Origin: Streptomyces sp. NRRL WC-3605
GTDB taxonomy: Bacteria > Actinomycetota > Actinomycetes > Streptomycetales > Streptomycetaceae
DNA length: 64,000 nucleotides
Direction: 5' to 3'
Assembly (NCBI RefSeq): GCF_001509795.1
Contig: NZ_LLZN01000059.1
Coordinates: 1 to 64,000 of the forward strand
Below are positions 14,856-61,379 of the stretch, one piece after another (the first letter of the stretch is position 1; every line of letters starts with the position of its first letter). A model generated the notes under the pieces. It searched no databases and was not told the DNA's origin. It saw nothing but the letters and a program-made list of their open reading frames with translations. The translations under genes were made by a program, and so were the position numbers.

Positions 14856-14885
14856 ACGTCCTACAGGCGGGCTACCGCTACTCAT

Positions 14886-17218: not shown

Positions 17219-17259
17219 ATGGGGTTCACCAGTGGCAATCCGCCGCACTCCGCAGACTC

Positions 17260-17600: not shown

Positions 17601-17925
17601 AGGGACAACGGTACTAAGTGGGGTTGACAGTTGATGGGTGCTCGGGCCCTGCACCGCTTTGCACAAAACGGACGACTCAGGCGCCGGGGGAGCGTAACTT
17701 GCGCGTTCAGGTATGGTCCTGCTTGACCTCTTGCCTAACCTGAGTGAGTTTCAGAAACTGCAGGTCAGCGGCTTGTTCAGGGCCCTCATCACTGAAACGT
17801 TGACGTGACCCAAATCACCTGACCTGGCTGCCCTACCTGCGTGTTCGAAGCCGCCCCAGCGTGTCTCCGAACTCGACGTCGACGTCCAGTCCGGGCACGG
17901 AGAACTGCTCCTCCGTGCCCACCAG
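17601..17925. other. gene-free interval with small palindromes
   Basis: No gene is seen here. AGTTTC-A-GAAACT forms a perfect palindrome at 17747-17759, and CAGGTCAG (17761-17768) is inverted at 17819-17826. These lie next to the recombinase remnant and may be an old recombination site. Confidence 0.35.
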
Positions 17926-18080
17926 CTACCGCTTCCGCAGTGTCGACGGCTTGTCGGTCCGGTTGGCGAGCATCCGGCGAACGGTCTCCGCGTGCCATCG
18001 CTCCCCGCACTTCGGGCGGATGTCCTCCTCCAGCACGGCGCAGATCTCCCGCAGGGACAACTCGTCCTCGTCGCGAAGAG
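17926..18080 (-). pseudogene. serine-recombinase C-terminal remnant
   Basis: One minus-strand frame reads LRDEDELSLREICAVLEED, then a WHAETVRRMLANR tract and a stop. This matches the C-terminal Recombinase-domain helices of serine recombinases. There is no start codon or catalytic domain upstream, so only a tail remains. It has no clear similarity to the intact recombinase at 12803. Confidence 0.55.
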
Positions 18081-18224
18081 GGCGCGGGCACGCCCAGCCT
18101 GCTCCATCTACTCAGAGATGACCGACGGCCGGGCGCCGGACCAGCACGGCGGCTGGGGCCGCGTAGAGGCAGGCTCGCCGGCGGGGCACGGGCATCCTGA
18201 TGCGCTGTCTGGGGCGGGTCTGCC

Positions 18225-20216: not shown

Positions 20217-20452
20217 GGGGCGGCGACTCCACGTCTCGGATGCCCCTACGGACGCTCTGCTGACGGAAACGGTTCGGGCTCCACCGACCGCGGCCGCATG
20301 CTCCTCCCTGTGCCCGGCTGGCTGGCGGATTTGAAGGGGTCACCGGCCACCACCGGGCACCTCTCACCCGGGCCGAGGCAAGGTGCTGTGGAGCTGCAGA
20401 GCAGCGTCTGAGCGGCACACCCGTGCTCTTTCGCTGGTCCGTCCCGCGGCGG
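20217..20452. other. intergenic upstream of the pentapeptide gene
   Basis: No gene is supported. It serves as the leader and promoter region of the minus-strand pentapeptide gene and the 3' flank of the P450 gene. No clear terminator hairpin was found. Confidence 0.3.
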
Positions 20453-47879: not shown

Positions 47880-49649
47880 TTACCGGGCCCGAGGCGGGCC
47901 CTTGCGCTGCTCGTCACCCGGCGGCCTACGGGTCGGCCCGGATGCCCCCAGCAAGGGCGGCCCACTGCTCCGGCCGGCGTCACCGGTCGACGTCGGCGAT
48001 GGGCTTCTTCCGGTGACCGGCGTCGGCGCACCGCGCTGGCGGCTCCACCCGTCCAGCCGCCATGTAAGCACCTCGGCGACGGATTCCGCAGAGGTCAACT
48101 GCCGTTGTGCGGCCACCCTGGTGAGGACCTCGACCGGGTCATCCCCCGCGTTCTCGACAGCGGCCAACCGGGTGCGCAGCGCGGGCCATGCCGGGTCTGC
48201 GAGCACCGCACGCGCATGCTCGGGGACAGCCTCCTGCAGCACGCCCGCCATGGGGCGCTCTCCCGAGACGGCAGGGGTCCGGCGGACGCCCCCGGGCCGG
48301 GTGGTCGTGCGCTTCGGACGGGGCTGGTAGTCACGCGCCGCGCTCGCACCAGCGGTCACCTCGACCGCCTCACGCAGCAGCCGCCCGGCTCGCCCGGAGG
48401 CCTCCGCCTGGGCGCGGTGCTCCTGTGCCTGGTGCCAGCGGTGAGAGGCCTCGATCGCAGTGGCCAGAGCGAGCAGGAAGCCGAGTGCGGCCACCGCGTC
48501 GCTCCTTCCGGCGGCGGCCGCCGACCGGGACAGCATGTATGCCGACTCCCGGTAGAGGCTGCGCGCCTGGCCTTCCAGCGCACGGTCGCCCGGCACGCGC
48601 GAGGCCCGCTCGAACTCGTAGGCCGCGTCACGCAGTCGATCGCGCACCATGCGCGGCGAGATCACCGCAGCGATGACGATGAGGTCACCGAGTGCGGCGA
48701 CGTCCCCGGCCCCCTGGCGCAGACCGCCCGCGCCGAGCTGGTCGGCGGCCGCACGTACACGCCGCTCCGCCTCCTGCCACATCTCCGCCGGCGCGACAGT
48801 CGGCACCGAGACGGGTCTCGTCCAGCGCTCCCGTACGCGCGGCAGGGACAGATCGGAGGCGAGCCGGGCGCCGGGAAACCACACCGCGCGCTGCCCGCCA
48901 TCACGGTCACCGGGCAGGGCGACGGAGTACCCGGTGATGTTCCCGTCTGGCGCGACACGCTTGTTCACCCGGACTCCGGCGGCGGTCAGCCGGGCGAAGA
49001 AGTCGTCCTCGTTCGCGGCGGCGGCCGCGGCCTCCCGGACCGTCCGCTGCAGCGTCACCCGCGCCGGCTCCGACAGCCCGCGCCGAACGGCTTTCTCCTG
49101 CTCCCCGGTCTTCGGCCACGTCCGCGCGGTCTTGTCGCCATGGGTCAGCCGACGCAGCCCGAACTCGGCCTCGAACTTCCGGGCGGCGGCGTGCATCTTC
49201 GGGATGTCCTGCCGCAGTCGCGGCTGACGGCCGTCCTGCCTCGCCTGCGTCGCGACGATGTGAATGTGGTCGTCGGCATGACGGATCGCCACCCACCGGC
49301 AGCCCTGATCGTCACCGTGCTCAGCGATGCCGGCGGCGTGCATCATCTCGCGTGCGACCTTCGCCCATTCCTGGTCCGTCAGGAGCCGGTCCTCGGGGGC
49401 GTTGCGCACCGCTACGTGGTAGACGTGCTTGGCCGGTCGCTTACCGAGCAGGGCGTGCACCGGAGCGTCCAGGATGAGCGCCAGGTCGGCGATCGTCATG
49501 TGCGGCGAGCGCGCCGGGTCCTCGACGAAGGGGTCGTCCCAGGAAGCGACCATGTGCGGGTTGGTGTGCTCGTCACGCTTCCCGGGGCCGTACAGGTAGG
49601 CCAGCAGCCCGCAGGTGTCCGTGCCGTCCCTGGCCTTCTTCGGCATCAT
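47880..49649 (-). CDS. MOBP-type relaxase
   Basis: 589 aa. The N-terminal relaxase domain has a Tyr-rich start (GLLAYLYGPGKRDEH), the HVYHVAVRNAPEDRLLTDQEW motif and the metal-binding histidines H124, H128 and H130 in RHADDHIHIVAT. These are the motifs of plasmid mobilisation nucleases that nick oriT and stay bound to the strand's 5' end. The C-terminal half is helical, with coiled-coil and one repeat unit shared with its neighbour. The gene overlaps the MobC-like gene stop as ATGA. oriT is expected just upstream of the MobC gene, where a palindrome-rich tract occurs. Confidence 0.88.
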   Translation of the reverse strand: MMPKKARDGTDTCGLLAYLYGPGKRDEHTNPHMVASWDDPFVEDPARSPHMTIADLALILDAPVHALLGKRPAKHVYHVAVRNAPEDRLLTDQEWAKVAREMMHAAGIAEHGDDQGCRWVAIRHADDHIHIVATQARQDGRQPRLRQDIPKMHAAARKFEAEFGLRRLTHGDKTARTWPKTGEQEKAVRRGLSEPARVTLQRTVREAAAAAANEDDFFARLTAAGVRVNKRVAPDGNITGYSVALPGDRDGGQRAVWFPGARLASDLSLPRVRERWTRPVSVPTVAPAEMWQEAERRVRAAADQLGAGGLRQGAGDVAALGDLIVIAAVISPRMVRDRLRDAAYEFERASRVPGDRALEGQARSLYRESAYMLSRSAAAAGRSDAVAALGFLLALATAIEASHRWHQAQEHRAQAEASGRAGRLLREAVEVTAGASAARDYQPRPKRTTTRPGGVRRTPAVSGERPMAGVLQEAVPEHARAVLADPAWPALRTRLAAVENAGDDPVEVLTRVAAQRQLTSAESVAEVLTWRLDGWSRQRGAPTPVTGRSPSPTSTGDAGRSSGPPLLGASGPTRRPPGDEQRKGPPRAR

Positions 49650-50077
49650 GCCCGCGGCCGCCGTTCACGCATCACCTGCCGCGTCGCCTCGTCCATGCGT
49701 TGGATCGTCTTGAGTATGGCGTCCAGTGTGGCGGCGAGCTGGGCACTGGTCACCGTGCCATCCGCGTTCAGTGCCTTCGCGATCTGGTTGACGTTGTTGC
49801 CGATCCGCGAGGCCTGATTGCGGGACTGGATCAGCTCGGCGATGAGGTCGCGGGCGTCGACGGAGACGGGCACGACCTTCTCCGTGGCTACCTTCATTGC
49901 GGCGTCGCCCACCCATGCGGCCAGGGCCTGGTTGTCGCGGGCGGCGGCCTCACGAATGATCGTCAGCTCGGTGTCGGTGTAGGAGACCTTGATGCGCGTG
50001 TTGCGACGACTGTCGGTCTCGCGTTCGCGGTAGCGCGCGCTGCGGCGTCGCCCGCTCGATGCCGGCGGCTCTGCCAC
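49646..50077 (-). CDS. mobC: MobC-like mobilisation accessory protein
   Basis: 143 aa from GTG 50077. A basic N-terminus and TRIKVSYTDTELTIIREAA form a ribbon-helix-helix-like start, followed by LIQSRNQASRIGNNVNQIAKALN, the hallmark stretch of MobC relaxosome proteins. MobC binds near the nick and melts oriT. The gene overlaps the relaxase start and reads away from the palindromic tract at 50100-50182, which is the expected geometry. Confidence 0.8.
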   Translation of the reverse strand: MAEPPASSGRRRSARYRERETDSRRNTRIKVSYTDTELTIIREAAARDNQALAAWVGDAAMKVATEKVVPVSVDARDLIAELIQSRNQASRIGNNVNQIAKALNADGTVTSAQLAATLDAILKTIQRMDEATRQVMRERRPRA

Positions 50078-50319: not shown

Positions 50320-50700
50320 ATGCCAAGCGCAGACGAGATCCTGCAGAAAATGAAGGCCCTCCAGGCGCAGCGTGAGGAGTCGATCGAGCCCCTGGTCGGC
50401 ATCCTGGCTCAGCGCAGTGAACTCCTGGACCAGCTCGCCGCCCTGGAGGAGCCGTACGGCCGGGCGTACGTCGCCGCCGAGGTCGGTGGGTGGACACCCG
50501 ACGAGCTGGCGAAGATGGGCGCGGAGGAACCGGCGAAGCGTCCGCGGGCCCGCTCGCGGCGGTCGCGGGCGGCGGCGCGGAAGGCCGAAGAACGGACGTC
50601 CGCAGCAGCCTCCGAGGGGGCCTCGCCGGCTGGGACGATCCCGGCTCAGGACGGGGCGGCCGCTGACGAAGCGACGGCGGTCAGTACCGCAACGGCCTGA
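50320..50700 (+). CDS. unknown coiled-coil protein
   Basis: 126 aa. The first 60 residues are helical with heptad-like leucines (ILQKMKALQAQREES, ILAQRSELLDQLAALEE) followed by WTPDELAKMG; the rest is a basic, then Ala/Thr-rich tail. The leaderless TAGGAT box sets the ATG. It faces the methyltransferase gene across a strong bidirectional terminator and lies on the other side of the putative oriT from mobC. No family recognised. Confidence 0.65.
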   Translation: MPSADEILQKMKALQAQREESIEPLVGILAQRSELLDQLAALEEPYGRAYVAAEVGGWTPDELAKMGAEEPAKRPRARSRRSRAAARKAEERTSAAASEGASPAGTIPAQDGAAADEATAVSTATA

Positions 50701-50725
50701 CCGTTCCACCGTCCAGTACGCACGC

Positions 50726-50752
50726 GAAGGGCCCCGCATCGCGGGGCCCTTC
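50726..50752. terminator. bidirectional terminator
   Basis: GAAGGGCCCCGC and GCGGGGCCCTTC form a perfect 12-bp stem with a 3-base loop between two converging genes. Confidence 0.9.
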
Positions 50753-50780
50753 GTCGTTGACGCCTGTTCTCGCCTGCCTG

Positions 50781-52463
50781 TCAGACGGCGGGCTTCCAGT
50801 CGGCGGGCGGGCTCGCTGTCCGCGGGGCGAACAGGGTGCGCAGGAGGGTCTGCTTCCCGAACAGTGTGAGCTGGTCTCCGGCCTTGGGGCGGGCGTCCGA
50901 CTCCGCCCGCTGGTTCAGCTGGTACAGCGCCGCCTGGTAGCCGGAGACCGGCTTGTACCAGTCCTCGCCCTGGACCGCGGCGGAGATGGCGGCGCCCATG
51001 AACGGCGACACGGCGTCGGCGATCATCTGGGCGATGTTCCGGGTCCCCTTCGCTCCCGCCCGGGCGGGGATGTAGGTCCACGGGTAGTCCTGGCGGAAGC
51101 CGACCAGGACGCCGAGATCCGGCAGGGACACCGTGGTGGTCCCCTCACCCTGCGGGACGTCGGCGGGGCGGAACTTGATTCCGTACCAAGGGGCGGTGAC
51201 GCACATGCCAACTCGGTTGAGGGGGAAGCTGCCGCCGCCGATCGGCTTGCCGGTCGCGGGGTTGACCTTGCGCTTGCCGCGGGTGTCGGCCCACCAGGTG
51301 GCCGGAAGGTTCAGGGCCTGTGCGACGGTCACGACCGGGAGCGCGGGGCGGCCCTGGTAGGGCTCGATCCGGCGGTCCAGCTCGGGCATCCAGTCGGGCA
51401 GCTTGCCGGTCTTCTTGAGCACGTGGGCGAACATCTCGCGGGCCGCCGCCTGGCCGTCGACGTGGTCGGCGTAGCGGGGCTGCTTGTAACGGGTGGCGAC
51501 CATCCAGGCCCGTTCGCGGTGGGTGGCGGCGCCGAAGTCTGCGGCGTCCGCGATCTGCCATGAGCACCATGCCCAGCCGAAGCCCTCGACGCTGGTGATC
51601 TCGGACTGGATGGCTTCCGCCAGGGCGGGGGTCTGCTTCAGCAGGTTCGCCGACTGCTCCATGGTGATGGAGATCAGGGGAGCGCCGATCTGCACGAGGC
51701 ACATGGGCCAGATGAGCATCTCCGCCATGAGCGCGGTGCGCTCGTCGGAGACCGCCGACGCGGCCCACTCGCGGAACTCAGCCGGGGTCATGTTGGGGGG
51801 CAGGTGGCCGCCGCCGCACAGCTCGCCCCAGCCGTGCGCGTCGGGGTGGTCCTCCATGCCGTCGATGACGCCGGTGAAGTAGTGGTGGGGGCCGCCGTAG
51901 AGGCTGCACAGGTCGTCCACCTCCAGGAAGCCGAACGCTTCGGAGGCCTGCCACATGATGCTCTGGAGTTCGGAGATCTCCTGGCTGTTCCAGGCGGAGC
52001 GCTTGCCGCCGTCGGAGAGGGTCTGGCAGGGGGGCGAGCCGTGGAAGCGGCGGGTGCCGCGCAGGGCGGGGTGGCGGGGGTCCAGCGTCCTGATGTCCGC
52101 CTCCACCACCCAGTAACCGGCCGCCCGGGCCGTGGCCGCTGCGTCCCGGTTCTGCTCGATGAGCACCCAGTCGCCGCCGTCGTCGACCAGCTCGCGGCCG
52201 GTGGCCATGCCGCCCGGTCCGCCGAAGGCCTCGACGCCGCGCTCGGGCTCGCCCTCCTGCCAGGTACGCGCCCAGTGCGGCGGGTAGGGGAACGCGAAGT
52301 CGGTGCACGCGCGGCAGTCGGCGCAGTCCGCGCCGGTCTCGCACACGGTGCAGTTGTCCTCGCACGTCCAGCCGTCCCAGTCGTACACCGCCGGCTGGAA
52401 GCCGTTCGCGTACGGACGCCCGTCCTCGTCCGTGGCTGCGGCGGTGTCGTGCACCTCGTCCAT
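50781..52463 (-). CDS. C5-cytosine DNA methyltransferase
   Basis: 560 aa. Motif I is EAFGGPGGMATG (79-90), motif IV is GSPPCQTLS with the catalytic Cys146, motif VI is a variant SITMEQSAN (EQS instead of ENV), and motif VIII GAATHRERAWMVATR is easy to see. An N-terminal cluster of six Cys (34-53) may bind zinc. Near the C-terminus QLTLF (531-535) is a beta-clamp-like pentapeptide, followed by LLRTLFAPRTA. No restriction enzyme is beside it, so it is an orphan enzyme, perhaps protecting the element or marking its DNA. Expression comes from promoter element E1. Confidence 0.88.
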   Translation of the reverse strand: MDEVHDTAAATDEDGRPYANGFQPAVYDWDGWTCEDNCTVCETGADCADCRACTDFAFPYPPHWARTWQEGEPERGVEAFGGPGGMATGRELVDDGGDWVLIEQNRDAAATARAAGYWVVEADIRTLDPRHPALRGTRRFHGSPPCQTLSDGGKRSAWNSQEISELQSIMWQASEAFGFLEVDDLCSLYGGPHHYFTGVIDGMEDHPDAHGWGELCGGGHLPPNMTPAEFREWAASAVSDERTALMAEMLIWPMCLVQIGAPLISITMEQSANLLKQTPALAEAIQSEITSVEGFGWAWCSWQIADAADFGAATHRERAWMVATRYKQPRYADHVDGQAAAREMFAHVLKKTGKLPDWMPELDRRIEPYQGRPALPVVTVAQALNLPATWWADTRGKRKVNPATGKPIGGGSFPLNRVGMCVTAPWYGIKFRPADVPQGEGTTTVSLPDLGVLVGFRQDYPWTYIPARAGAKGTRNIAQMIADAVSPFMGAAISAAVQGEDWYKPVSGYQAALYQLNQRAESDARPKAGDQLTLFGKQTLLRTLFAPRTASPPADWKPAV

Positions 52464-52565
52464 GTCCTCTGTCCTTGATCGTTGAGGCTTCTCGGTGGTG
52501 CCGGTCCGGGATTCCCGCCCCGCTCCGACACTGCTAATTCAATCAACTTTTAGAAGACGCGTCAA
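52464..52565 (-). promoter_or_regulatory. promoter-leader element E1
   Basis: The minus-strand promoter has TTGACG at 52560-52565, a 17-base spacer and TTGAAT at 52537-52542. The leader holds the common GGCGGGAATCCC core and CCTCAACGATCAAGGACAGAGG before the methyltransferase ATG. The same box and leader occur at E2 and E3. Confidence 0.8.
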
Positions 52566-52598
52566 GACGTTTGCGCAGGTCACAGGAGGTTTCACCCT

Positions 52599-52893
52599 GG
52601 CGTCCGGACGCCATACGACCGCCTCGGTCGGGGGGCTCCCTCCTCGGTCGGGCAGGCGTCAGCCGACCGCGGGCCGCGTCGGGGTGCCGGGCTCGCCGGA
52701 GGCGACCGCCGCAGGCGGCTTGGCCTGGCGGTCCGGCGCGGGCTGTGGTCCCCTCCGGGTGCCCGTCCGGGGAGGGAGTCCCCCGACCGCCCACCCCCCC
52801 CTGCACCATCCACTCACCGCAAGGTCGGCCCGCGTCCCCCCGCCCCCTCCGAGAGAGGGCCGGGGGGTGTGGGGGGCGGCGCCCCCCGCGTCA
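52599..52893. repeat. about 290-bp direct repeat R1
   Basis: This gene-free block matches 59511-59800 (R2) closely along its length, in the same orientation. It is G-rich on the plus strand with two runs of six G separated by TGT, and it abuts the stop of the 603-aa gene. Homologous recombination between R1 and R2 would remove about 6.9 kb. Confidence 0.8.
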
Positions 52894-54702
52894 CCACAGG
52901 GCGGCCTGCAGGGTGCCCGCCTCCGGTGCCCGGAACGATGTCGCAGCCGATTCCCGGGCGGGCGCGGACGTCGCCGGCGGGGCGCCTGGAGCGGGCTTCA
53001 CCTTCGCGGCCGGGCGGGCCGGAGCCGGGCCATCCTTGAGGCACGCGCACCGGCACCACCACACGCACGGTTCACCGTCCGGCCGCAGGATGAGCCGGGC
53101 GACGGCGATCCCTTGATGGTTGGTCACCCAGTCCTGGTTCCTGTCGACGTCCGGGCCGCCCCTCTGCCGGTGGACACAGATGTCGCACCGTCCGTTGAGG
53201 CAGTTCCAGCAGGTGCCCCGCTCACACATGCTCCACCGGGCGAAGCCGTGCGGGTACTTGCGCTCGATCTGCTGGATGTGCTCCGGCCAAACGTGCTCGC
53301 GCACCCAGGCGCCCGCCTCCTCCGGCATGGGCGAGGCGTTGGGGACCGGGTCGATGATGCCCATGATCAGGGCGGCCTGGAAGTTGAGCGCGGCCGTGTC
53401 CCGGACCCGCTTGCGCTCCTCGACGGTGAGGACCCGCTGGGGGCGCCGGATGACCGTACGCACGTCGCGCGCGGGACGCTGTTCGCGGGCGGCACGCGGG
53501 GCGAACAGGCGTCGCAGCAGGGGCTGCTCGGCGCGCACGGCGGTGTCCGGCGGGACGGCCCGGGACGCCTCGGCGGCGGGCCGGAGTCCGCTGCCGGGGC
53601 AGGCCTCGGCAGCGGTGCGGGTGGGCTTGTGGGGGGCCAGGACACCGGCCACGGTGGCCTTGCGCAGTCCGCAGCAGGGGCACCGGACGGCGCCCTCGAC
53701 GGCGGGAGCCGGAGCCGGGACGCCGGGGCAGTAGCCGCCCTCGTCCTCCCACTGCTCGGTGGCCTCGCGCTCGGCGCGCACCTCCTGCTCGGCGAGCGTC
53801 ACCGGCCGCCGGTACCGGCCCACGGCGCCGTACTCCAGGGCGGGCAGACGGTGGGCGGCGGCCTTCTTGTCGTCCATGCGCTTGTGCCGCTTCGCGACGC
53901 GGGCGTAGCGGGCCTCGTACGCCGCGGTGTCGCTGTCGTACAGGCCCGCCGGGTGCAGCCGCGCGAGCTCCAGAGCGACCTTGCCCATCGGGGTCGGCGT
54001 GAGCACCTGGACGCTGTCGGGGGCGGCGGCCGCGGTGAGGAACCCGGCGGCGTGCAGGGCCTGTGTCCGCTCCCGGTGGACCCTGCGGCCGCCGCTCCAC
54101 ACGCCGCGCTCGGCGGCCTGCCGGGCCTGCCCGTCGCGCCAGTACAGGCGGCCGGTCTCCGCGGCCTCCATCACCCGCACGTGCCCGGCGCTCCAGCCGA
54201 GTGCGGGCACGGCGCTCTCGGCGAGGAAGGCGTTCATGCGGGCGAGGTGGCGGTTGTCGCTGTCCATGCCGGTGGCGGCCCGCTCGACGGCCTCCCGCTC
54301 GGCCTCCGCGCGGCGTAGCTCGCTCTCCAGCTCGGCGCGCTCCTGGGCGGTGAGCTGGCGCTCCAGCTCAGTCCGCAGCGCGGCGGCCGTAACCTCGATC
54401 CCGGCCGCCTCCTGGGCGCGCACGGCGTGGTCGACGGCGCCACGGGCGCAGTGGCGCAGCGCACTGCCCGGCATCTGCGGGTCGGCCGCCCACCGCTCGG
54501 CCCGGGCGGCGCACCCTTCGGCCTCGACGGCCTCCCGGTGCACCGCGTGCATGACCTCTTCGAGGCGCGCTTCGCTGCGGGAGCTGCTGCGGCACATGGC
54601 GGTCAGCGCGTGGTCGTCAGCGGCGGCGGCGAGGTCGGCGGCCTCGCGGGCCACCCGGAGGCAGGTCTGCGGGGTCGGCTCCCCCGGCTCGCTCTCGTCC
54701 AT
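52891..54702 (-). CDS. 603-aa cysteine-rich protein of unknown function
   Basis: Long helical, Glu/Arg/Ala-rich first half. A CPCCG pair lies in the middle, followed by LLRRLFAPRAA (about 394-404), which nearly repeats the LLRTLFAPRTA of the methyltransferase. The C-terminal part is packed with Cys: MCERGTCWNCLNGRCDICVH, then CVWWCRCACLKDG, a likely metal-binding domain. No family recognised. It has its own promoter element E2, and its 5' end (MDES) resembles that of the methyltransferase (MDEV), because both genes sit behind nearly identical leader sequence. Confidence 0.65.
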   Translation of the reverse strand: MDESEPGEPTPQTCLRVAREAADLAAAADDHALTAMCRSSSRSEARLEEVMHAVHREAVEAEGCAARAERWAADPQMPGSALRHCARGAVDHAVRAQEAAGIEVTAAALRTELERQLTAQERAELESELRRAEAEREAVERAATGMDSDNRHLARMNAFLAESAVPALGWSAGHVRVMEAAETGRLYWRDGQARQAAERGVWSGGRRVHRERTQALHAAGFLTAAAAPDSVQVLTPTPMGKVALELARLHPAGLYDSDTAAYEARYARVAKRHKRMDDKKAAAHRLPALEYGAVGRYRRPVTLAEQEVRAEREATEQWEDEGGYCPGVPAPAPAVEGAVRCPCCGLRKATVAGVLAPHKPTRTAAEACPGSGLRPAAEASRAVPPDTAVRAEQPLLRRLFAPRAAREQRPARDVRTVIRRPQRVLTVEERKRVRDTAALNFQAALIMGIIDPVPNASPMPEEAGAWVREHVWPEHIQQIERKYPHGFARWSMCERGTCWNCLNGRCDICVHRQRGGPDVDRNQDWVTNHQGIAVARLILRPDGEPCVWWCRCACLKDGPAPARPAAKVKPAPGAPPATSAPARESAATSFRAPEAGTLQAALW

Positions 54703-54803
54703 GTCCTCTGTCCTTGATCGTTGAGGTTTCCCGGTGGTGCCGGTCCGGGATTCCCGCCCCGTCCGACACTGCTAATTCAATCAAGTTCTAGGGTGCGGGT
54801 CAA
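54703..54803 (-). promoter_or_regulatory. promoter-leader element E2
   Basis: TTGACC (54798-54803), 17 bases, TTGAAT (54775-54780), then the same leader as E1 down to the ATG at 54702, with only a few differences. It drives the 603-aa gene. Confidence 0.8.
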
Positions 54804-54851
54804 GCTGAATTCGCAGCTCAGAGGGCGGTTTCTCGGTCTCCCCTGTGACAT

Positions 54852-54896
54852 GCGACGGCCAGCGCCTACCCCGTCGGGCGTGGCGCTGGCCGTCGC
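54852..54896 (-). terminator. 15-bp stem terminator at the end of the six-gene unit
   Basis: GCGACGGCCAGCGCC (54852-54866) and GGCGCTGGCCGTCGC (54882-54896) are perfect arms, placed just after the stop of the HTH gene. Confidence 0.8.
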
Positions 54897-54909
54897 GTCG
54901 CGGTCCGCT

Positions 54910-55518
54910 TCAGGTCTGCTTGCGGGCAGCGGTGACGATCCGCTTCCAGGTGCTCAGGCCTCCGCCGTGGCGCTCTGCGAGGGCGGCGGCGACCTCGCCC
55001 GCCTTCCGGTCCGGCTCCGCGGCCAGAACCTCGGCCGCGAGCGTGATCCGGGGATCGGGACCCTTCGCCGGCTTGCGGCCGGCGACCCCTGCCCGGCTCC
55101 GGCTCATGGGATTGGAGTCGGCGTACGCCCACAACTGGCGCCGGGTGCGGTACTCGCGCACGCGCCCGCTCGGCAGCTCCTCGACCCGCACCGGAGCGGG
55201 CCACCCCGGCGGCGGGTTCTCGCGGTAGTGGCTGATCGCGCTCACGTCGATGCCGAGCACCCGGGCCTGGTCCGCCGGGGGGAGTTCCTCGTCGGGGTTC
55301 CCGCTGCGGTCCACGCCGCTCTGGGAGCGCTGGTAGGCGGCAAACCACGCCTCCCACTCCCGCAGCTCCCAGTACAGGGTGCGGCCTTCCCTGCGCGCGG
55401 CCGGATGACCGTTGGCCTCACGGTCCGCCCACAGGTTGCGCAGGGTGGCATCGCTGTAGCCGCTGCGCTCGATCAGGTCGGCTCGGCTGGCGTACTGGCG
55501 GCCGTCGATGGTCCTCAC
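54910..55518 (-). CDS. HTH DNA-binding protein
   Basis: 202 aa from GTG 55518 with AGGAGTG before it. The N-terminus contains YASRADLIERSGYSDATLRN, a MerR/excisionase-type helix-turn-helix, and WELREWEAWFAAYQRSQ. A second possible DNA-binding part is GGGLSTWKRIVTAARK at the C-terminus. No family name is offered. It is the last gene of the E3 operon and may be a regulator or replication-partition factor. A start-associated element separates it from the PP-loop gene. Confidence 0.65.
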   Translation of the reverse strand: MRTIDGRQYASRADLIERSGYSDATLRNLWADREANGHPAARREGRTLYWELREWEAWFAAYQRSQSGVDRSGNPDEELPPADQARVLGIDVSAISHYRENPPPGWPAPVRVEELPSGRVREYRTRRQLWAYADSNPMSRSRAGVAGRKPAKGPDPRITLAAEVLAAEPDRKAGEVAAALAERHGGGLSTWKRIVTAARKQT

Positions 55519-55666
55519 TGCGTGCACTCCTGGTGGTGTCGGTCGTGGATACGATGGTGCCCGGTTCGGTTTTGGGCTTGTTGAGGGCCCTCGGTGGCCG
55601 GACCGCCGGCCCGGCGGGATTCCCACGCTTTTGCGCCCCGCCGGGCCGCTTGATGTCCGGGGCCGG
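55519..55666 (-). repeat. start-associated element E8
   Basis: Between the PP-loop gene and the HTH gene lie a GC-rich hairpin with a GCGGGATTCCC core (plus strand) and a TTGTTGAGG stretch, the same two marks as in the other intergenic elements, although this copy is the most divergent. Confidence 0.5.
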
Positions 55667-56545
55667 TCAGCTCCGGGCGCGCTCGATGATCTCGCGCAGG
55701 CTGATCGACTTCTTGAACTGGTGGCCCATGTCCGTCTCGGCCTGGGCGTACTCCTCGAACAGCTCGGGGTTGAGCTGCGCACTGCGCACGAGGTCGTCGG
55801 TGTGCGCGAGCGGGCAGGCCCGGCAGCTCAGGCGCCGCATGCCTTGGTCGTAGGCCTCGTGATGCTTGATGCCGTTGTCCCGGTGGGCCTTCCAGACCTG
55901 ATCGGTGCTGAGGTGGTGGACTGGGAGCCACGTCGTCACCACGCGCAGCGTGCCCTTGCCGCTCATGCGGTGGCGCTCCAGGACCGGCTTCCTGGCGCGG
56001 GCCGGGGACTCCTCGGCGCGCATGCCCATCGCGTACCCGGCCCGGACCGGGCGCCCGAGCCTTAGCTCGGCGCCGACCTCATCCACGTAGTCGCGGCCGA
56101 CCGCGGTCTTGGTGTCGCTCGTGCAGTAGCGCGCGAAGTGGCCGGGCCAGTTGCCGTGGGCGCGGATCCGCTGCCACAGCGACTCCCACAGCTTGCTGCG
56201 GCGGACGGCGAAGGGGACGCCGTACTGCTTGGCGTGTGCGCGGGCGACTTCGAGAGCGCCGGGCCACTCGACCAGGTGGCCGCGCTCGGTGGTCCCGAGG
56301 TCGCAGTGCAGGATGCGGACCTTGTGGAGCTGGCCCGCCTTGTCGGCCTGGGTGCAGACCTCGTGCACCGTGGACCCGCTGTCCTTGCCCCCGCTGTCGC
56401 CGATGACCACGACGTCGTGGGCGTCGAAGTCGAATTCGGCGGGCTCCGCCGGCGACTTCGCTGGCACGGCCGGCGGGGCGAACAGTTCCAGCTGTGCGGC
56501 GGCGCACCCGGTGGCGCACGGCGGGGTGAAGGGCTTGTTCGTCAC
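55667..56545 (-). CDS. PAPS-reductase/DndC-like PP-loop protein
   Basis: 292 aa from GTG 56545. The PP-loop is SGGKDS at 51-56, after VVVIGD. GMRAEESPAR (174-183) and Cys141, Cys241 and Cys244 follow, the last two in SCRACPLAH. These are the marks of the PAPS reductase/DndC superfamily, where the loop binds ATP or a nucleotide and the Cys hold an iron-sulphur cluster. QLELF at 18-22, followed by AP, is a beta-clamp-like motif. It would activate sulphur or another substrate for a modification reaction. No DndB/D/E partners are seen. It lies in the E3 operon. Confidence 0.8.
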   Translation of the reverse strand: MTNKPFTPPCATGCAAAQLELFAPPAVPAKSPAEPAEFDFDAHDVVVIGDSGGKDSGSTVHEVCTQADKAGQLHKVRILHCDLGTTERGHLVEWPGALEVARAHAKQYGVPFAVRRSKLWESLWQRIRAHGNWPGHFARYCTSDTKTAVGRDYVDEVGAELRLGRPVRAGYAMGMRAEESPARARKPVLERHRMSGKGTLRVVTTWLPVHHLSTDQVWKAHRDNGIKHHEAYDQGMRRLSCRACPLAHTDDLVRSAQLNPELFEEYAQAETDMGHQFKKSISLREIIERARS

Positions 56546-56639
56546 AGTCGTCTCCTGGTTGAGGTGTTCGGTGTGGTCGTGCCGGGCCCCGGCGGGGGAG
56601 CGGGATTCCCGCCCCGCTCCCCCGCCGGACTTGCGCCGG
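56546..56639 (-). repeat. start-associated element E4
   Basis: A perfect GC hairpin around GGCGGGAATCCCG is followed on the minus strand by CACCGAACACCTCAACCAGGAG and the GTG at 56545. It carries no promoter boxes. Confidence 0.75.
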
Positions 56640-57641
56640 TCACTCGGTCCCGGACGGCGTCCCCTGCAGCGTGGCGAGCCACGCCGTGACGGCCTGGACG
56701 CAGTCGGCGAGCTGGTCGGCCGGACGCGTCGTCAGCTCGCGCTCGGCGCCGGTGCCGTCACCCGCGAGCACGGTCCACTCGTCGCCGGGCGCGGGGGCGC
56801 GGTCGACGGTGATCTCTTCGTCGTTGCCGTAGCTGCCGAGGTAGAGCACGGCGTAGGGCTCGGCCAGCATGTCGGGGAAGTCCGGGCTGGTCTGGTCGCC
56901 GCCGATGACGAGCCACGTGTTCCCTGCGTCGTCGTCCCGGTGTGCGGTGATGCCCTGTTCGGCGAGGGCCGCCCGGGCGAGCTGCTCGGCGGTCTCCCCC
57001 ACGCCCCTCTCCGGCGCGCTGCCGCCGCACTGCTGGACCTGGGTGAGGACGGCTGCCACGAGACCGGAGGTGTCCTCCTCGTAGGGGCGGCGCTGGCCGT
57101 AGGAGTCGTACACGTGGACGGAGCGGCCGTTGCGGTCGATCCGTGACGCCTGCCAGCTGGCGTGGTCCCGCACAAGGTGGTGGATGCTGACCTCGGCGCC
57201 GCGCGTGCCGTCGCGGTCGGCGGCCGTACCGGAGACGGTGATCTCGGTGCCGTCGGCGAGCGGCACGCGGACGTAGCGCCCCGCGCTGTCCTGCCGGTTC
57301 AGGCAGCGCACTCCCGTCGCGCGGAGCTGGGCGAGGGGGGCTGTGATCACCTCGTCGTCGGCGGCCGCCGCCTCGCCGACGTGCTGCTCGATCAGGTCGC
57401 GAACGGCCTGCACGGGCACGTTGCAGCAGTAGCGGCCGTCCATGTTGCCGCCGGTCAGGAACACTTCGGCGGGGTCCTCGTCCTCCCAGCCGCTGGCGTC
57501 GGGGGCGGGCAGGCCGGGCCAGAGGTAGACGTCGACGGCGTCCGCCCCGGCGGCGATGACGCTGATCGTGTGGCCGTCGGCCAGGCGAAGCGCGCCGTTG
57601 GTGCTCTGCGTGATGAGGCGGTCAAAGCGTGCGGTACTCAC
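56640..57641 (-). CDS. unknown protein (333 aa)
   Basis: GTG 57641 has CAACAGGAG before it. The protein is acidic and contains several beta-rich stretches (ALRLADGHTISVIAAGADAVD, VLYLGSYGNDEEITVD) and a helical centre, with no motif that I recognise. Some segments (GNTWLVIGGDQTSPDFPD) recall small accessory proteins of actinophages. It belongs to the E3 operon between the PP-loop gene and a 201-aa gene. No function assigned. Confidence 0.55.
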   Translation of the reverse strand: MSTARFDRLITQSTNGALRLADGHTISVIAAGADAVDVYLWPGLPAPDASGWEDEDPAEVFLTGGNMDGRYCCNVPVQAVRDLIEQHVGEAAAADDEVITAPLAQLRATGVRCLNRQDSAGRYVRVPLADGTEITVSGTAADRDGTRGAEVSIHHLVRDHASWQASRIDRNGRSVHVYDSYGQRRPYEEDTSGLVAAVLTQVQQCGGSAPERGVGETAEQLARAALAEQGITAHRDDDAGNTWLVIGGDQTSPDFPDMLAEPYAVLYLGSYGNDEEITVDRAPAPGDEWTVLAGDGTGAERELTTRPADQLADCVQAVTAWLATLQGTPSGTE

Positions 57642-57719
57642 AGAGTTCTCCTGTTGAGGTTGTCGGTGGGGCCCGGGCGGGCGGGTATTCCCGTCTCCGC
57701 CCGCCCGGGCGGGTGTGGG
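57642..57719 (-). repeat. start-associated element E5
   Basis: A hairpin of CCCGCCCGGGCGGGCGG with its partner, core GACGGGAATACCCG, then CCCACCGACAACCTCAAC and AGGAG before the GTG at 57641. Confidence 0.75.
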
Positions 57720-58325
57720 CTACTGCTGGTAGGCGGTGATCAGCTCACGGACCTTCTCGTCTCCGACGCACCCGGCGGGCGCTCCGAATTCCGCGGAGGC
57801 CGGGTGCCGGTGGGTGCTGGGCAGTTCGCCGTTGCGGCCACGCTGGTGGGACCAGTAGCGCGGACCCTGCCAGCCGCACAGCTCGCACTTCTGCCACCAC
57901 GGGTTGTCGCTGCCGGGGAAGCCCGTGTACGGCGTCCAGCGGTGCAGGGCCAGGGCGGCCATCACCTTGGTCGCCGCCTCGACGTTCCGGGGGGTGTGCG
58001 GCATCCGCGGGTGCAGCAGGGGCACCGGGCCGTCGAGCACCGGCACGGCGGCGGTCACGTCCTCCAGCGCCAGGGCGGTGATGCGACCGGCGGCGTACTG
58101 GGCGGCCACCTGCTCGGCGGCCGCGCGGGCGGCGGCCTGAGGGACGCCGCGACGGCCCTGCTCGGGGCGGCCGAGGTTGCGCTCGCCCTCGCTGGTGAGG
58201 GTGAGCCAGTCGCGGTGCCAGCGGAACACGGCGCCGATCACGGTGGTCTCGCCGATCAGGACCGGGTAGCGGCGCTCCCAGTCCGGGGTGCCGAGCCGGT
58301 AGGCCAGGGCGGTGGTGGTGGTCAT
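57720..58325 (-). CDS. unknown protein (201 aa) with a CxxC
   Basis: ATG 58325, RBS AAAGG. Contains YPVLIGETTVIGAVFRWHRD, a helical middle and CELCGWQGPRYWSH, a possible metal site. Members of this group seem to be small accessory proteins. E3 operon. No family recognised. Confidence 0.55.
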   Translation of the reverse strand: MTTTTALAYRLGTPDWERRYPVLIGETTVIGAVFRWHRDWLTLTSEGERNLGRPEQGRRGVPQAAARAAAEQVAAQYAAGRITALALEDVTAAVPVLDGPVPLLHPRMPHTPRNVEAATKVMAALALHRWTPYTGFPGSDNPWWQKCELCGWQGPRYWSHQRGRNGELPSTHRHPASAEFGAPAGCVGDEKVRELITAYQQ

Positions 58326-58416
58326 CTGTGCTGCCTTTCGCTGAGGTTGTTCGGTGTGGGGGCCGGTGGCGCGGGCGGGGATTCCCGCCCCCGCCCGCGT
58401 CACCGGCGTCTGTGGG
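58326..58416 (-). repeat. start-associated element E6
   Basis: A hairpin with core GGCGGGAATCCCCGCC, then CACACCGAACAACCTCAGCG, then the AAAGG ribosome site and ATG 58325. Confidence 0.75.
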
Positions 58417-58986
58417 TCAGCGGCAGGTGGGGCTGCCGTAGACCAGGCAGCCGTGCCGCTTGTGGGTCATGAACTCCAGGTGGTCCCGGCACATGCGGGG
58501 CGTCCACGGCGTGGAGATCGGGAAGTAGGTGCAGCCGTCGGGGTCTTGCTGGGCGGCCCGGGCGGCCTCGTCGCCGTCGTACAGCTCGCCGTCACTGCCG
58601 CCGTCCGCGATGCGGATGGCGACCCACCCGTGGCCGCCGCCTTCCAGGTGCCTGTCGATGACCTCGACCATCCGGGCGGCGGCGTTGAACAGGGCGTAGT
58701 CGAGACGGGCGATGCCGGCGGCGTGCGCGTGGCTGACGGCCCGGAGGGCCAGCAGGCTCAGCGACTCCGACCCGGCGTCCAGGACGGAGCCCATCAGCTC
58801 GTCCCACTGCAGCTCGCGCTCGACCGGGTGGTCGGCCTGGCGCTCGACGTGCACCACGCGCCGCTCGGGGATCCGGTCCTCGCGCATGTGCTCGGCCCAG
58901 GTGGTGAACGGATCGCGGTCGTCGGCGATGACGAGGTACACGTCCGGACGCTTCACCCAGTGGGCGGGCACCTGGTTGATGGTCAT
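58417..58986 (-). CDS. unknown protein (189 aa)
   Basis: ATG 58986. Contains YLVIADDRDPFTTWAEHM, VRELQ-like VERELQWDELMGSVLD and WVAIRIADGGSDGELYDGDE, and ends CLVYGSPTCR. It may have a nucleotide- or cofactor-binding fold at the start, but nothing is firmly recognised. E3 operon. Confidence 0.5.
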   Translation of the reverse strand: MTINQVPAHWVKRPDVYLVIADDRDPFTTWAEHMREDRIPERRVVHVERQADHPVERELQWDELMGSVLDAGSESLSLLALRAVSHAHAAGIARLDYALFNAAARMVEVIDRHLEGGGHGWVAIRIADGGSDGELYDGDEAARAAQQDPDGCTYFPISTPWTPRMCRDHLEFMTHKRHGCLVYGSPTCR

Positions 58987-59075
58987 GAAAAGTGGGCCCT
59001 TCGTTGTTGAGGTTGCTCGGCGAGCCGCCGGGTGGGCGGGGATTCCCGCCCCCGCCCACCCGGCGGGATCAGATG
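58987..59075 (-). repeat. start-associated element E7
   Basis: A hairpin with core GGCGGGAATCCCCGCC, then CGCCGAGCAACCTCAACAACG and GAAGGG before ATG 58986. Confidence 0.75.
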
Positions 59076-59354
59076 TCAGGCCCGGTGGGCCGGGTTGGTG
59101 ATCACACGGAACGCGGTGCCGTTGCCGCCGATCAGGACCACACCACGGGCGAGCTCGGCCACGCGCGCGGGAATCTCGCCGTCCTGGAAGCCAGCCCTCT
59201 CCAGCTGGAACCACAGGCAGCCCGCCACGTCCTGGGGCTCGGTCGTCCAGTCGCCCTCGGCTGCGGTGATCCACTCCGCGCCCATCGGGCGCCACTGCCC
59301 CAAGTGCTTCGAGGCCTTCCATTCCGCGGGCCACCCGGCCCTAACGTCGGTCAT
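59076..59354 (-). CDS. unknown 92-aa protein
   Basis: ATG 59354; the first gene of the E3 operon. Contains WITAAEGDWTTEPQDVAGCL, FQDGEIPARVAELARGVV and ends with NPAHRA. No family recognised. The composition is like the other small proteins of the operon. Confidence 0.5.
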   Translation of the reverse strand: MTDVRAGWPAEWKASKHLGQWRPMGAEWITAAEGDWTTEPQDVAGCLWFQLERAGFQDGEIPARVAELARGVVLIGGNGTAFRVITNPAHRA

Positions 59355-59469
59355 CTGTACGCCTTTCGCTGAGGTTGCTCGGTGTGGGCTCCGCGAGCCC
59401 GGCGCCGGGCCGGGATTCCCGCCCCGTTCCGACACTGCTAATTCAATCAGGTTTTGGGGTGTGGGTCAA
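59355..59469 (-). promoter_or_regulatory. promoter-leader element E3
   Basis: TTGACC (59464-59469), 17 bases, TTGAAT (59441-59446), then TAGCAGTGTCGGA and a leader with the GGCGGGAATCCC core and CACACCGAGCAACCTCAGCG. This is the promoter of the six-gene unit that runs to 54910. The first 40 bases match E1 and E2 almost exactly. Confidence 0.8.
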
Positions 59470-59510
59470 GCTAAAAGCCCAGCTCAGACGGCCCTTTTGC
59501 AGCTCGATCC

Positions 59511-59800
59511 GGCGTCCAGACGCCACACGGCCCGCCGGTCGGGGTGCTCCCTCCGCGGCCGGGCAGGCGTCAGCCGACCGCGGGCCGTTCCGGGGTGCCG
59601 GGCTCGCGCTTGCGCGACCGCCGCAGGCGGCTTGGCCTGGCGGCCCGGTGCGGGCTGTGGTCCCCTCGGGTGCCCGGCCGCGGAGGGAGCACCCCGGCCA
59701 CCCACCCCCGAGCCCACCCGCTCACCTCAAGATCACTCCCGGCCCCCGCCCCCTCTGTGGAGGGCCGGGGGGTGTGGGGGGCGGAGCCCCCTGCATCACG
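59511..59800. repeat. about 290-bp direct repeat R2
   Basis: Direct repeat of R1 (52599-52893), in the same orientation relative to its E promoter. It also contains the two G-runs (GGGGGG-TGT-GGGGGG), which could fold as a quadruplex or, on the other strand, resist polymerases. Confidence 0.8.
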
Positions 59801-59838
59801 GCAGACGGCGGGAGTACGGCAAGAACGCCGCACCCCCG

Positions 59839-59904
59839 CCCTGTTGTGCCGGAACAACGCGATGCGGGCGCGAAGGGGGCTGTTGTTGGGTCGACACAAC
59901 AGGG
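59839..59904 (-). terminator. 10-bp inverted repeat past the DUF2637 gene
   Basis: CCCTGTTGTG (59839-59848) and CACAACAGGG (59895-59904), perfect arms with a 46-base loop, just past the DUF2637 gene stop. It may end that transcript. Confidence 0.5.
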
Positions 59905-59909
59905 CGCGG

Positions 59910-61379
59910 TCAGGTGATGTGGTCCTCGCGCCATTCCTTCATCGCCTTGGACACCGTGGCCGGCGCGACACCGATCCGCTCGGCGAACTTCGCCTGGGAG
60001 GGCGGCGGCTGCTCGGTCTCCTTGGCCCGGAGGAAGTCCTCGGCCAGACGCCGGCGTCCGGCCCGGTCCTCGGTGTAGCGCTCGCCCGGGTGTTCGCGTC
60101 CCTCCCCGACCGCGAAGCCGACGGCTCCTTCGCGGTAGCCGTTCGCACCGTTCACGGTGGAGCTGCCCGCGTACGCGAAAGCATTCGCGGCGAGCGACGC
60201 GGCGTTCGCGCCCACCAGTTCGCGGTCGCCGTTCGCGACGGGTCCGGCCGGGCTGTACGGGGCGGGCACGGTGCTCCTGACGACCGATCGCGCGGGGGCG
60301 GCCGCAGGGACCGATGCGCGTTCGCGGTGCGATTCGCGCAGGTCAGCGCCAATTGGAGGGGTCGCGTCGGTGACCGCGAACGCCGGGTGTTCGCTTGCCG
60401 GTCCTCCGGGCGTTCGCACGGTCTCCATGCCGGTGAGGTGACTGTTCGCGGCGGCCGGTCCCACCGGCCCGGCGTTCACGCTCGGCACCTCGACGCCGTT
60501 CGCGGCGTTCACGGTGTTCGCGGCGCCGTCGAGCGGGGTCGCGTTCGCGCGGTCGGTGTTCGCGGCGTTCGCGCGATCGGTGTTCGCGCGATCGGCGTTC
60601 GCGGGGAACAGCTCGGCGTTCGCGATCAGCTGGGCGGGGATCGGGAGACCTCGGCCGGCGTCGCGCATGGCGCGCAGCTCGACGGGGCGGGCCTTCTGCT
60701 TCCACTTCCTGCCGTACTTCTCGCGCAGCTCGTCGCGCAAGGTGAGCCGGTCGCGCTCCAGGTCGAGCGCTTCGGCGCGGGTGTAGACATCCCACAGCCT
60801 CATGCGCCGCCACACGCCGAACGTCGGCAGGGGTGCGAGGACCCAGCGGGCGATGCCGAGCGGCTCGAACTGGCGGCCGTCGGCGATGCGGGCACGGCGG
60901 GCGATGGCCCGGCGCAGGGCCTCGGTGATGACCACGACCAGTCCGGGCATCGTGGCGTGGGCGGCGGCCTCGACGTAGTCCATCCATCCGGCGGAGCCGT
61001 CCGGCGGCCACCCGCTGGAGGCGTTGAACACGACGGTGGCCACGGTCAGCACCCAGGCGAACCACCGCAGGATCGGGGCCGGGGTGCGGATCGCGCACAG
61101 GAACAGATCCGCGGCGATCAGCCCGATGATCCCGACATCGATGCCGACAGGGAAGACGTACGAGAACCAGCCCCACCCCCAGCCGAGCGCCAGGTCGCGA
61201 ACGGAGCGGTAGCTACCGGTGAAGCCGATGACCGCAAGAGCGAGGGCGTTGACCGCGACGACGGCGGCGGAGGCCAGCAGGCCTCCTCGGATGGGGACCA
61301 GGGCGTCGCCGTCGGCGGCGGTGCTGCTGGCGGGTATCGGCGGTCGTCGCTCAGCGCCGGTCACCGCGTGCGTGGTCAC
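59910..61379 (-). CDS. DUF2637 membrane protein with C-terminal HTH
   Basis: 489 aa from GTG 61379. The N-terminal 170 residues hold four hydrophobic segments with the DUF2637 layout (SYRSVRDLALGWGWGWFSYV, FPVGIDVGIIGLIAADLF). Next comes an Asn-Ala repeat tract rich in NADRANTDRANAA units, then a Ser/Pro linker, and at 460-485 AKFAERIGVAPATVSKAM, a helix-turn-helix. DUF2637 proteins recur on actinobacterial conjugative plasmids, often near the transfer control region. The fusion of four membrane segments to an HTH suggests a membrane-bound regulator or a partition-type protein. It opens the 3' flank of R2. Confidence 0.8.
   Translation of the reverse strand: MTTHAVTGAERRPPIPASSTAADGDALVPIRGGLLASAAVVAVNALALAVIGFTGSYRSVRDLALGWGWGWFSYVFPVGIDVGIIGLIAADLFLCAIRTPAPILRWFAWVLTVATVVFNASSGWPPDGSAGWMDYVEAAAHATMPGLVVVITEALRRAIARRARIADGRQFEPLGIARWVLAPLPTFGVWRRMRLWDVYTRAEALDLERDRLTLRDELREKYGRKWKQKARPVELRAMRDAGRGLPIPAQLIANAELFPANADRANTDRANAANTDRANATPLDGAANTVNAANGVEVPSVNAGPVGPAAANSHLTGMETVRTPGGPASEHPAFAVTDATPPIGADLRESHRERASVPAAAPARSVVRSTVPAPYSPAGPVANGDRELVGANAASLAANAFAYAGSSTVNGANGYREGAVGFAVGEGREHPGERYTEDRAGRRRLAEDFLRAKETEQPPPSQAKFAERIGVAPATVSKAMKEWREDHIT

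Follow-up and report, generated by a model that had tools for sequence, protein, structure and literature searches.

Hairpin-and-Tail Leaders Precede the Genes of One Block on Streptomyces Plasmids and Recur on a Second Type of Mobile Element

Results

Eight leaders before eight genes

The first 64,000 bases (hereafter the window) of contig NZ_LLZN01000059.1 from Streptomyces sp. NRRL WC-3605, an 88,814-base contig in a genome of 7.58 Mb and 136 contigs, carry a block of eight minus-strand genes between 59.4 and 50.8 kb. A first-pass annotation of this DNA had proposed that the same kind of leader, a hairpin followed by a conserved tract, stands before all eight genes, and we indeed find eight copies on the minus strand, one per gene, with loops starting at plus-strand coordinates 59422, 59049, 58388, 57694, 56612, 55626, 54757 and 52518. 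Pfam names three of the eight gene products. The features are given here in the direction of transcription, with protein lengths in amino acids (aa); the three leader classes are described further below.

59441..59469, minus: promoter of E1, TTGACC-N17-TTGAAT (position-matrix score 82.7; missed by the general scan)
59368..59439, minus: E1, class B leader, a tail preceded by a hairpin at the predicted start of the transcript (E 2.3e-10)
59076..59354, minus: gene 1, 92 aa, without Pfam family
59006..59066, minus: E2, class A intercistronic leader with a long perfect stem (E 1.8e-9)
58417..58986, minus: gene 2, 189 aa, without Pfam family
58340..58405, minus: E3, class A leader (E 1.3e-11)
57720..58325, minus: gene 3, 201 aa, without Pfam family
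57653..57711, minus: E4, class A leader with loop variant ACGGGAATA (E 1.5e-4)
56640..57641, minus: gene 4, 333 aa, without Pfam family
56558..56629, minus: E5, class A leader (E 5.3e-11)
55667..56545, minus: gene 5, 292 aa, PAPS-reductase domain, DndC-like
55580..55653, minus: E6, class C leader with a mini-hairpin inside its loop and a tail about 60 nt ahead of the start codon (E 0.0021)
54910..55518, minus: gene 6, 202 aa, candidate regulator, predicted to be excisionase-like with tandem winged helices
54775..54803, minus: promoter of the 54.8 kb copy (matrix score 78.5)
54720..54773, minus: 54.8 kb class B leader (E 1.8e-8)
52891..54702, minus: gene 7, 603 aa, DUF6248
52537..52565, minus: promoter of the 52.5 kb copy (matrix score 57.2)
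52481..52535, minus: 52.5 kb class B leader (E 7.7e-9)
50781..52463, minus: gene 8, 560 aa, DNA cytosine methylase
47880..50077, minus: mobC (49646-50077) and relaxase (47880-49649), downstream of the block in the same direction; context outside the leader system

The core that the first-pass annotation singled out, GGCGGGAATCCC, recurs exactly in six of the eight copies (the 57.7 kb copy has ACGGGAATACC and the 55.6 kb copy GTGGGAATCCC). This 12-mer occurs six times in the 7.58 Mb genome, always within the block, and its backward control does not occur. More precisely, the core is a loop plus its closing GGG/CCC, because the stem pairs around GCGGGAAT. The tract reported downstream is also present, as a tail of the type CACCGA..CCTCAAC, but CAACCTCAAC is exact only in the 59.0 and 57.7 kb copies; the others carry CAACCTCAGC (two copies), ACACCTCAAC, GGCCCTCAAC, AAACCTCAAC and AAGCCTCAAC. 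A covariance search of the whole genome, in which 150 of 18,296 first-look candidates were scored, gave nine places at E of at most 1, namely the eight leaders (E at most 0.0022) and one stray (0.35), and nothing beyond the eight at E of at most 0.01.

Conserved loop and tail, covarying arms

The covariance model was derived from 29 elements and run on 77 sources totaling 725,794 bases, which yielded 198 matches at E of at most 0.01. Dropping 13 matches in four duplicate loci (L013, L014, L019 and L023) left 185 copies in 41 loci, three of which (L017, L018 and L024) belong to a second element type.

The stem arms, such as GGGCGGGG and CCCCGCCC and longer in the strong copies, close on the loop GCGGGAAT, and they vary from gene to gene while the loop and its closing GGG/CCC are nearly constant. 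Across the 29 aligned elements, nine of 11 stem pairs have changed on both sides, with a covariation score of 0.434 against 0.129 in shuffled and at most 0.105 in slid alignments. Because relatives inflate such scores, the analysis was repeated for 27 class A stems whose arms share less than 80% identity, the second element type included, where the score was 0.378, compared with 0.158 after shuffling and no more than 0.180 after sliding; doubly changed pairs numbered 12 of 14 in this set, a plain count that was reached by 23 of 500 shuffles. Folding beyond that of shuffled sequences is clear for four of the window copies (z -3.7 to -4.7).

The loop reads GGGAAT in 182 of the 185 copies, GGGGAT in two and GGGAAC in one, a constancy that is partly built in, as the covariance model and the search pattern both favour GGGAAT; one CGGAAT copy was found (G324). 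The tail follows a loose linker and ends in CTCAAC in 155 of 185 copies. Its end lies 15.2 nt before the start codon (standard deviation 4.5), and the standard deviation of the hairpin-to-tail distance is 6.3 (n = 159).

A known RNA family was rejected as an identification, with none of 4227 Rfam models reaching its gathering score on the window and a single match at E of at most 1 on 52400-59950 (0.34, to a microRNA family on the plus strand). Intrinsic terminators were likewise rejected, since 50500-60000 holds no GC stem followed by a T-run (shuffled sequences, 2.6). A 16S search of the draft genome, for pairing of the loop with ribosomal RNA, gave nothing.

Position before start codons

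When start codons are chosen by their ribosome sites, 156 of 161 class A and B tails end 9-22 nt before a start, in comparison with 617 of 3,680 random positions. A start was assigned to 159 of these 161 copies, and the 9-22 nt interval applies to 91 of 93 in class A and 65 of 66 in class B. Under a simpler rule, a start within 30 nt, the figures are 89.7% of the 185 copies and 38.7% of the 3,680 random positions. A frame of 60 codons starting within 120 nt follows 184 of 185 copies, yet also 2,925 of the 3,680 random positions. The 183 downstream proteins form 22 clusters by BLAST single linkage, 15 of which have at least two members; the seven singletons may include wrong frames. Hence the leader stands before unrelated genes well beyond the locus in which it was noticed, and its copies are neither randomly placed nor merely recent duplicates of this locus, as spacing and the second element type both attest.

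Copies within a locus always share one strand. In six plasmid stretches (152 genes examined, edge genes left out), 45 of the 49 annotated genes from the first to the last tagged gene carry a leader. The other 103 same-strand genes lack one as a consequence of how the block is drawn, and the tagged genes are thus contiguous.

A shared promoter and three leader classes

The first-pass annotation also recognized a promoter common to three of the window copies, and TTGAATTAGCAGTG is exact in three places, each 17 nt past TTGACS. In the class B promoter, TTGACY is followed by a conserved AAAACTTGA within the spacer and by GAGTAT or TTGAAT as the -10 element. This promoter is present in all 56 leaders that were sorted into class B by hairpin side and have enough upstream sequence; among these, the TT of the -35 element and the AA, TTGA and ATT of the -10 zone are each at least 90% conserved. 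Many class B copies also have a CTGAnCTGC-like box upstream of -35.

A position matrix trained on the 56 leaders, the three window copies included, places only the three window promoters above the cut on the 88.8 kb contig (57-83), and one shuffled copy of the contig reached -21. Applied to seven sequences, six of which are stretches of 19-30 kb rather than whole plasmids, the matrix finds 22 sites (2-4 each), most of them training sites, and shuffled copies (one each) never exceeded -20. All but one of the 22 lie inside the tagged block. The exception is in L008 (2681-2807), where a promoter copy with the loop variant GTGGGAGT and no covariance-model match stands ahead of a NUDIX gene that belongs to a different plasmid module.

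The later sorting defines class B by the promoter (67 of 185 copies); an earlier sorting into A and B by a text rule differed for 10 of 185, and older sortings were used for the strand wobble test, clusters, promoter alignment and matrix, distance statistics and block density. If transcription starts about seven bases past -10, the class B hairpin would begin at approximately +1. Class A (94 of 185) is intercistronic and fills the gap from one stop codon to the next start; under the older sorting an upstream frame ends at most 160 nt before the loop in 100 of 103 copies (median 28 nt, a figure with no control).

In class C (24 of 185), an inner mini-hairpin replaces the GC of the loop, GGGAAT is kept and the tail lies 59-70 nt from the start. 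Every one of the 24 main-group copies stands before a member of a single gene family, that of the helix-turn-helix (HTH) gene 6. This link is not universal, because class-C-like leaders stand before other genes in the second element type. At three loci of that type (L097, L105 and L110), the class C tail GGCCTCAC is followed downstream by its complement (seen by eye), as if the tail were being masked.

Plasmids and a second element type

The 88.8 kb contig resembles circular Streptomyces plasmids with genes for mobilisation and type IV secretion. A megablast search of 72,556 plasmid records found 20 that match the block, all from Streptomyces, and the six inspected are circular and 76-100 kb long, with an annotated mobilisation protein in five of the six stretches. 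Strains that carry such a plasmid include S. albidoflavus NBC_01110 and S. reticuli TUE45. The block had no match in the phage collection searched. Upstream of the class B promoters that serve E1 and E8, a block of approximately 240 bp is repeated with 79% identity (59560-59800 and 52650-52880, minus strand). Within it lie inverted repeats of 22 bases (22 and 20 matches), starting 135-143 bases apart, and the block is possibly a separate non-coding element.

A pattern scan of GTDB genomes gave 56 stretches. Thirty of the 32 from Streptomyces, Wenjunlia or Streptacidiphilus contain a model match at E of at most 0.01, L033 and L038 being without one, and none of the 24 stretches from other taxa does. 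At E of at most 0.001, model matches were found in at least six of 295 genomes of the genus, a lower bound obtained with 17 candidates scored of 9,177-21,220 per genome in the rows shown, in two of 41 genomes of the order and in one of 60 of the class (the source genome only). The family search gave six of 41 at E of at most 0.01, three of them with a single match. Among the single matches of these searches, those in G307 and G308 lack the leader layout by eye, and in G324 hairpins with a CGGAAT loop lie close to a tail. No leader was detected at E of at most 0.05 in two plasmids with a methylase gene, L098 and L099, from another Streptomyces and from Nocardia.

A further single match (L139 9507-9556, minus strand; G353:C3) is a rare case outside plasmid-sized contigs: a leader-like hairpin with CTCAAC and no CACCGA, on a contig of 1.26 Mb and ahead of a 453-aa frame that lacks a Pfam family. 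A leader block also lies within a 7.16 Mb contig of Streptomyces mexicanus (L031 4038-6425), and such elements may therefore also integrate.

The second element type came to light when BLAST with a distant locus, G077, as query pointed to pSITFR-21c, a Streptomyces record of 103.5 kb that is typed as non-mobilizable. We take it to be a phage-plasmid because it has genes for a major capsid protein, a minor head protein, an amidase and ParB; among the second-type loci, the check for capsid genes covered pSITFR-21c. It carries three leaders at E of at most 3.2e-6 and a class-C-like one at E 0.23, which precedes a ChlI-like gene unrelated to gene 6. A first scan of viral contigs gave six stretches, none with a match, and two further scans gave 29 new stretches, six with matches; these six contigs have 2-4 leaders each (18 matches, all below 0.01). 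In total, the second type accounts for 26 copies (E of at most 0.01) in nine loci, three of them also among the 185, with the tail ACCGAnnnCCTCAC. The start codon lies 2-24 nt past the match in 24 of the 26 and 55-56 nt past it for the two of class C.

One downstream cluster is common to both element types, via a single main-group copy in L080. Gene 5 is the only block protein with a BLAST match (E of at most 1e-8; 34-37% identity) in the stretches of pSITFR-21c, G077 and G072, and when 685 open frames, covering 97.5 of the 103.5 kb of pSITFR-21c, were compared with the contig, two matches were obtained, gene 5 and a frame at 77.7-79.2 kb.

Exchange of genes across the leader

Class A copies of different plasmids were compared according to which neighboring gene they share, with plasmids resampled (26 plasmids, 585 discordant pairs) and with upstream genes taken as the longest frame ending nearby, a choice open to error in GC-rich DNA. 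A common upstream gene goes with greater likeness of the 16 nt preceding the stem (0.069, confidence interval [CI] 0.031 to 0.115) and of the 5' arm (0.065, CI 0.008 to 0.114), whereas a common downstream gene goes with greater likeness of the stretch from tail to start (-0.121, CI -0.194 to -0.061). No preference is seen for the tail itself (-0.023, CI -0.095 to 0.049), and the intervals for the 3' arm and the linker include zero. Comparisons with non-independent pairs point in the same direction.

Individual alignments agree. For example, L046 and L043 have an upstream gene that is 96% alike and remain near-identical to a few bases before the start, after which identity drops to 58% (unrelated); L046 and L049 match at 98% in the downstream part and have different stems. 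In the aligned pairs, the change-over falls in the tail or the ribosome site. Genes have thus been exchanged across the leader, since what precedes the hairpin goes with the upstream gene and the ribosome site with the downstream one. The suggestion in the first-pass annotation that the leader travels with its gene therefore applies to the ribosome site but not to the pre-hairpin sequence and 5' arm. Its further idea of an active cassette-gathering device is not supported: module exchange across the leader needs no special enzyme, and the mosaics need no recombinase, though no search for one was made.

Discussion

We hold with moderate confidence that these elements are bipartite mRNA leaders that co-regulate an early or establishment operon through a common reader of loop plus tail. 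Leaders of about 60 nt would tag nearly every gene of this operon on mobile elements of the Streptomycetaceae. Their first part would be a stem-loop whose arms are free to change while pairing and which presents a near-invariant GGGAAU, and their second part an A/C-rich tail, CACCGAnnnACCUCAAC, that normally stops 9-22 nt short of the start codon. At the head of a transcript, the class B hairpin would follow the one shared promoter at the predicted start. A common factor, perhaps an RNA-binding protein, a ribonuclease or the ribosome itself, would read loop and tail and set the translation or stability of all tagged cistrons together, while the shared promoter would co-regulate their transcription. 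In short, the tag probably switches or stabilises the genes of the block together and sits where genes were swapped. The co-regulation tag envisaged in the first-pass annotation is plausible because promoter copies in the window's contig sit only inside the block.

The sequences themselves show the anatomy of the leader, its covariation, its spacing to start codons, its confinement to one block, the shared promoter, the predicted openness of the ribosome sites, the two element types and the exchange of genes. From these we infer RNA to be the acting molecule, together with the trans factor, the direction of the effect, the transcript starts and the role in establishment. RNA is suggested by the spacing to starts, the tail beside the ribosome site, the arrangement of promoter and hairpin at the predicted transcript start, the presence of the element alongside capsid genes and the predicted openness of positions -30 to -1, which is greater for tagged than for untagged genes (0.573 versus 0.410, p 1.4e-12, 45 versus 107 genes).

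Several observations weigh against this reading. The window's three leaders of class B, like E6 (55.6 kb), fold no better than shuffled sequences (z -0.4 to -1.3). A count of G-T against A-C, which should favour the coding strand if the folded molecule is RNA, was neutral in class A (15 versus 14) and leaned to the sense strand in class B (42 versus 18), where the wobble overlaps the initiation sequence. Refolding of class A gave the lower energy to the antisense strand in 37 of 55 copies and to the sense strand in 18 (p 0.026), and refolding of class B gave it to the sense strand in 24 of 37 and to the antisense strand in 12 (p 0.004). G-U pairs on the sense and antisense strands number 58 and 36 in class A and 98 and 45 in class B, but a loop-closing G-U occurs on the sense strand only. 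The gap in openness is at least partly one of composition (A 0.33, T 0.07 and G 0.20 in the tail region versus A 0.20, T 0.11 and G 0.36) and is measured against genes that include ones with coding upstream sequence. Scanned for a general sigma-70 consensus, 50.5-60.0 kb yielded no promoter, so that all three were missed; TTGAAT escapes it because the scan demands A at the second -10 position. Four of the 49 block genes (L007 11423, L008 10326, L009 14002 and L012 12714) have, by eye, a different GC hairpin with neither loop motif nor tail.

Gene 6, the predicted DNA-binding protein behind the class C leaders, has weak structural matches (best Foldseek E 0.019, to TraN of Enterococcus, with a low TM-score), and its profile has one match among solved structures (E 0.14). 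It has no BLAST match at E of at most 1e-8 in the second-type sequences compared, a further point on the adverse side. As a universal factor it was dropped, given the lack of a match in pSITFR-21c and the ChlI-like gene behind the class-C-like leader there.

A bolder version of the RNA proposal, which we offer tentatively and consider less likely than its simpler form, is that two kinds of mobile element share an operon-wide RNA switch in which a single factor recognizes the GGGAAU loop and the CCUCAAC tail of nearly all cistrons, that class C tunes it by masking of the tail, and that the same element is the site of gene swaps. Under an RNA switch, a gene swapped in at the leader would fall under its control at once.

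The main rival, which we judge unlikely though by no means negligible, holds that the leaders are general mRNA-stabilising or insulating hairpins with an unstructured ribosome landing site and no dedicated factor, the stem blocking nucleases and keeping neighboring sequence off the ribosome site. The stable stems, the A-rich and G-poor tail, the more open ribosome sites and the four block genes that retain a hairpin without loop motif or tail are all consistent with this model, and so is the p576 leader, whose short inverted repeats are thought to lengthen RNA half-life (PMC8708921). Left unexplained are the GGGAAT of 182 of the 185 copies, partly favoured as it is by the search model, a tail conserved over 15-22 protein clusters and both element types, and a class C tail kept 60 nt from the start.

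That the elements are primarily recombination or gene-swapping sites, akin in concept to integron cassette sites and only secondarily placed at starts, seems improbable. The segments before the loop do track the upstream gene and those after the tail the downstream gene, with change-overs in the tail or ribosome site. Nevertheless, ordinary homologous recombination between repeated leaders gives the same mosaics, the 3' arm and linker show no clear association, the longest-frame choice of upstream gene can err, and a regulatory role would suit the start spacing, the base composition and the place of class B copies after promoters.

Still less probable is an action of the hairpins as single-stranded DNA during conjugative entry, in early transcription or priming, like Frpo or ssi sites of leading regions. 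The block lies upstream of mobC and the relaxase gene and is read towards them, as leading-region genes transcribed from the transferred strand could be, its methylase and DndC-like genes would suit early anti-restriction, and the strand tests are compatible with DNA. However, the promoter precedes the hairpin instead of sitting inside it, and leaders also occur on a phage-plasmid with capsid genes that is typed as non-mobilizable. Ordinary duplication of this one locus, to which the near-identity of two window class B leaders and the 79% identical repeat upstream of E1 and E8 might point, is rejected as scarcely credible by arms that change from gene to gene yet remain paired (27 of the 116 class A stems are mutually less than 80% alike) and by the leaders of the second element type.

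If the bipartite-leader reading is correct, these would be an undescribed family of structured leaders that mark whole operons, not single genes, in an antibiotic-producing genus. They would offer a handle on plasmid genes that act together, perhaps early, a bait for the factor, and natural plug-in gene modules under shared control.

Comparison with known systems

Among the titles and abstract beginnings of the literature matches listed, a coverage outside which most subscription papers lie, this leader is undescribed. Integron attC sites have variable paired arms and fixed motifs, and their module is a gene plus the hairpin that follows it. Arms, motifs and module are alike here, but the start spacing and promoter copies point to expression.

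In Frpo hairpins, the promoter itself lies within the hairpin, upstream of leading-region genes (PMC11541004). The likeness is in hairpins upstream of genes next to a mobilisation region, whereas the Frpo -35 and -10 elements inside the hairpin have no counterpart here, as the class B promoter precedes its hairpin and class A is by definition without one.

For start association, the nearest system is that of the start-associated sequences (SAS) and extended SAS (ESAS) of cluster K mycobacteriophages, also short repeated tags just before the starts of genes of different families. SAS is a 13-bp word, rare in the host genome as the core is here, and in ESAS imperfect inverted repeats of 17 bp share a consensus and flank a variable spacer of 4-13 bp; a role in translation initiation has been proposed (PMC3203893). 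Host and element type differ from those of the Streptomyces leaders. Instead of the SAS word GGGATAGGAGCCC (at most two changes), what is conserved here is GGCGGGAATCCC and CACCGA..CCTCAAC, and instead of repeats with a consensus there are arms that vary and covary, a fixed loop and a separate tail. The contrast that the first-pass annotation drew with cluster K is thus right, conserved and variable parts being reversed there.

For plasmid logic, the nearest system is EGeRS1 and EGeRS2 of pLS20-family plasmids, in which one upstream region recurs in several copies heading operons; EGeRS2 combines a promoter and an operator adjacent to its -35 element, the regulon includes a repressor, and the system also has an anti-restriction gene (PMC8708921). 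Hosts and sequences differ, and EGeRS stands before the first gene of an operon, whereas here nearly every inner cistron is tagged as well. The two systems are alike in having repeated upstream regions that head operons and inverted repeats (in the p576 leader), and the anti-restriction gene there is reminiscent of the methylase and DndC-like genes here. The candidate regulator in the Streptomyces block would be gene 6. Several promoter copies head operons in the manner of EGeRS2 (22 sites in seven sequences), and these may likewise serve early expression.

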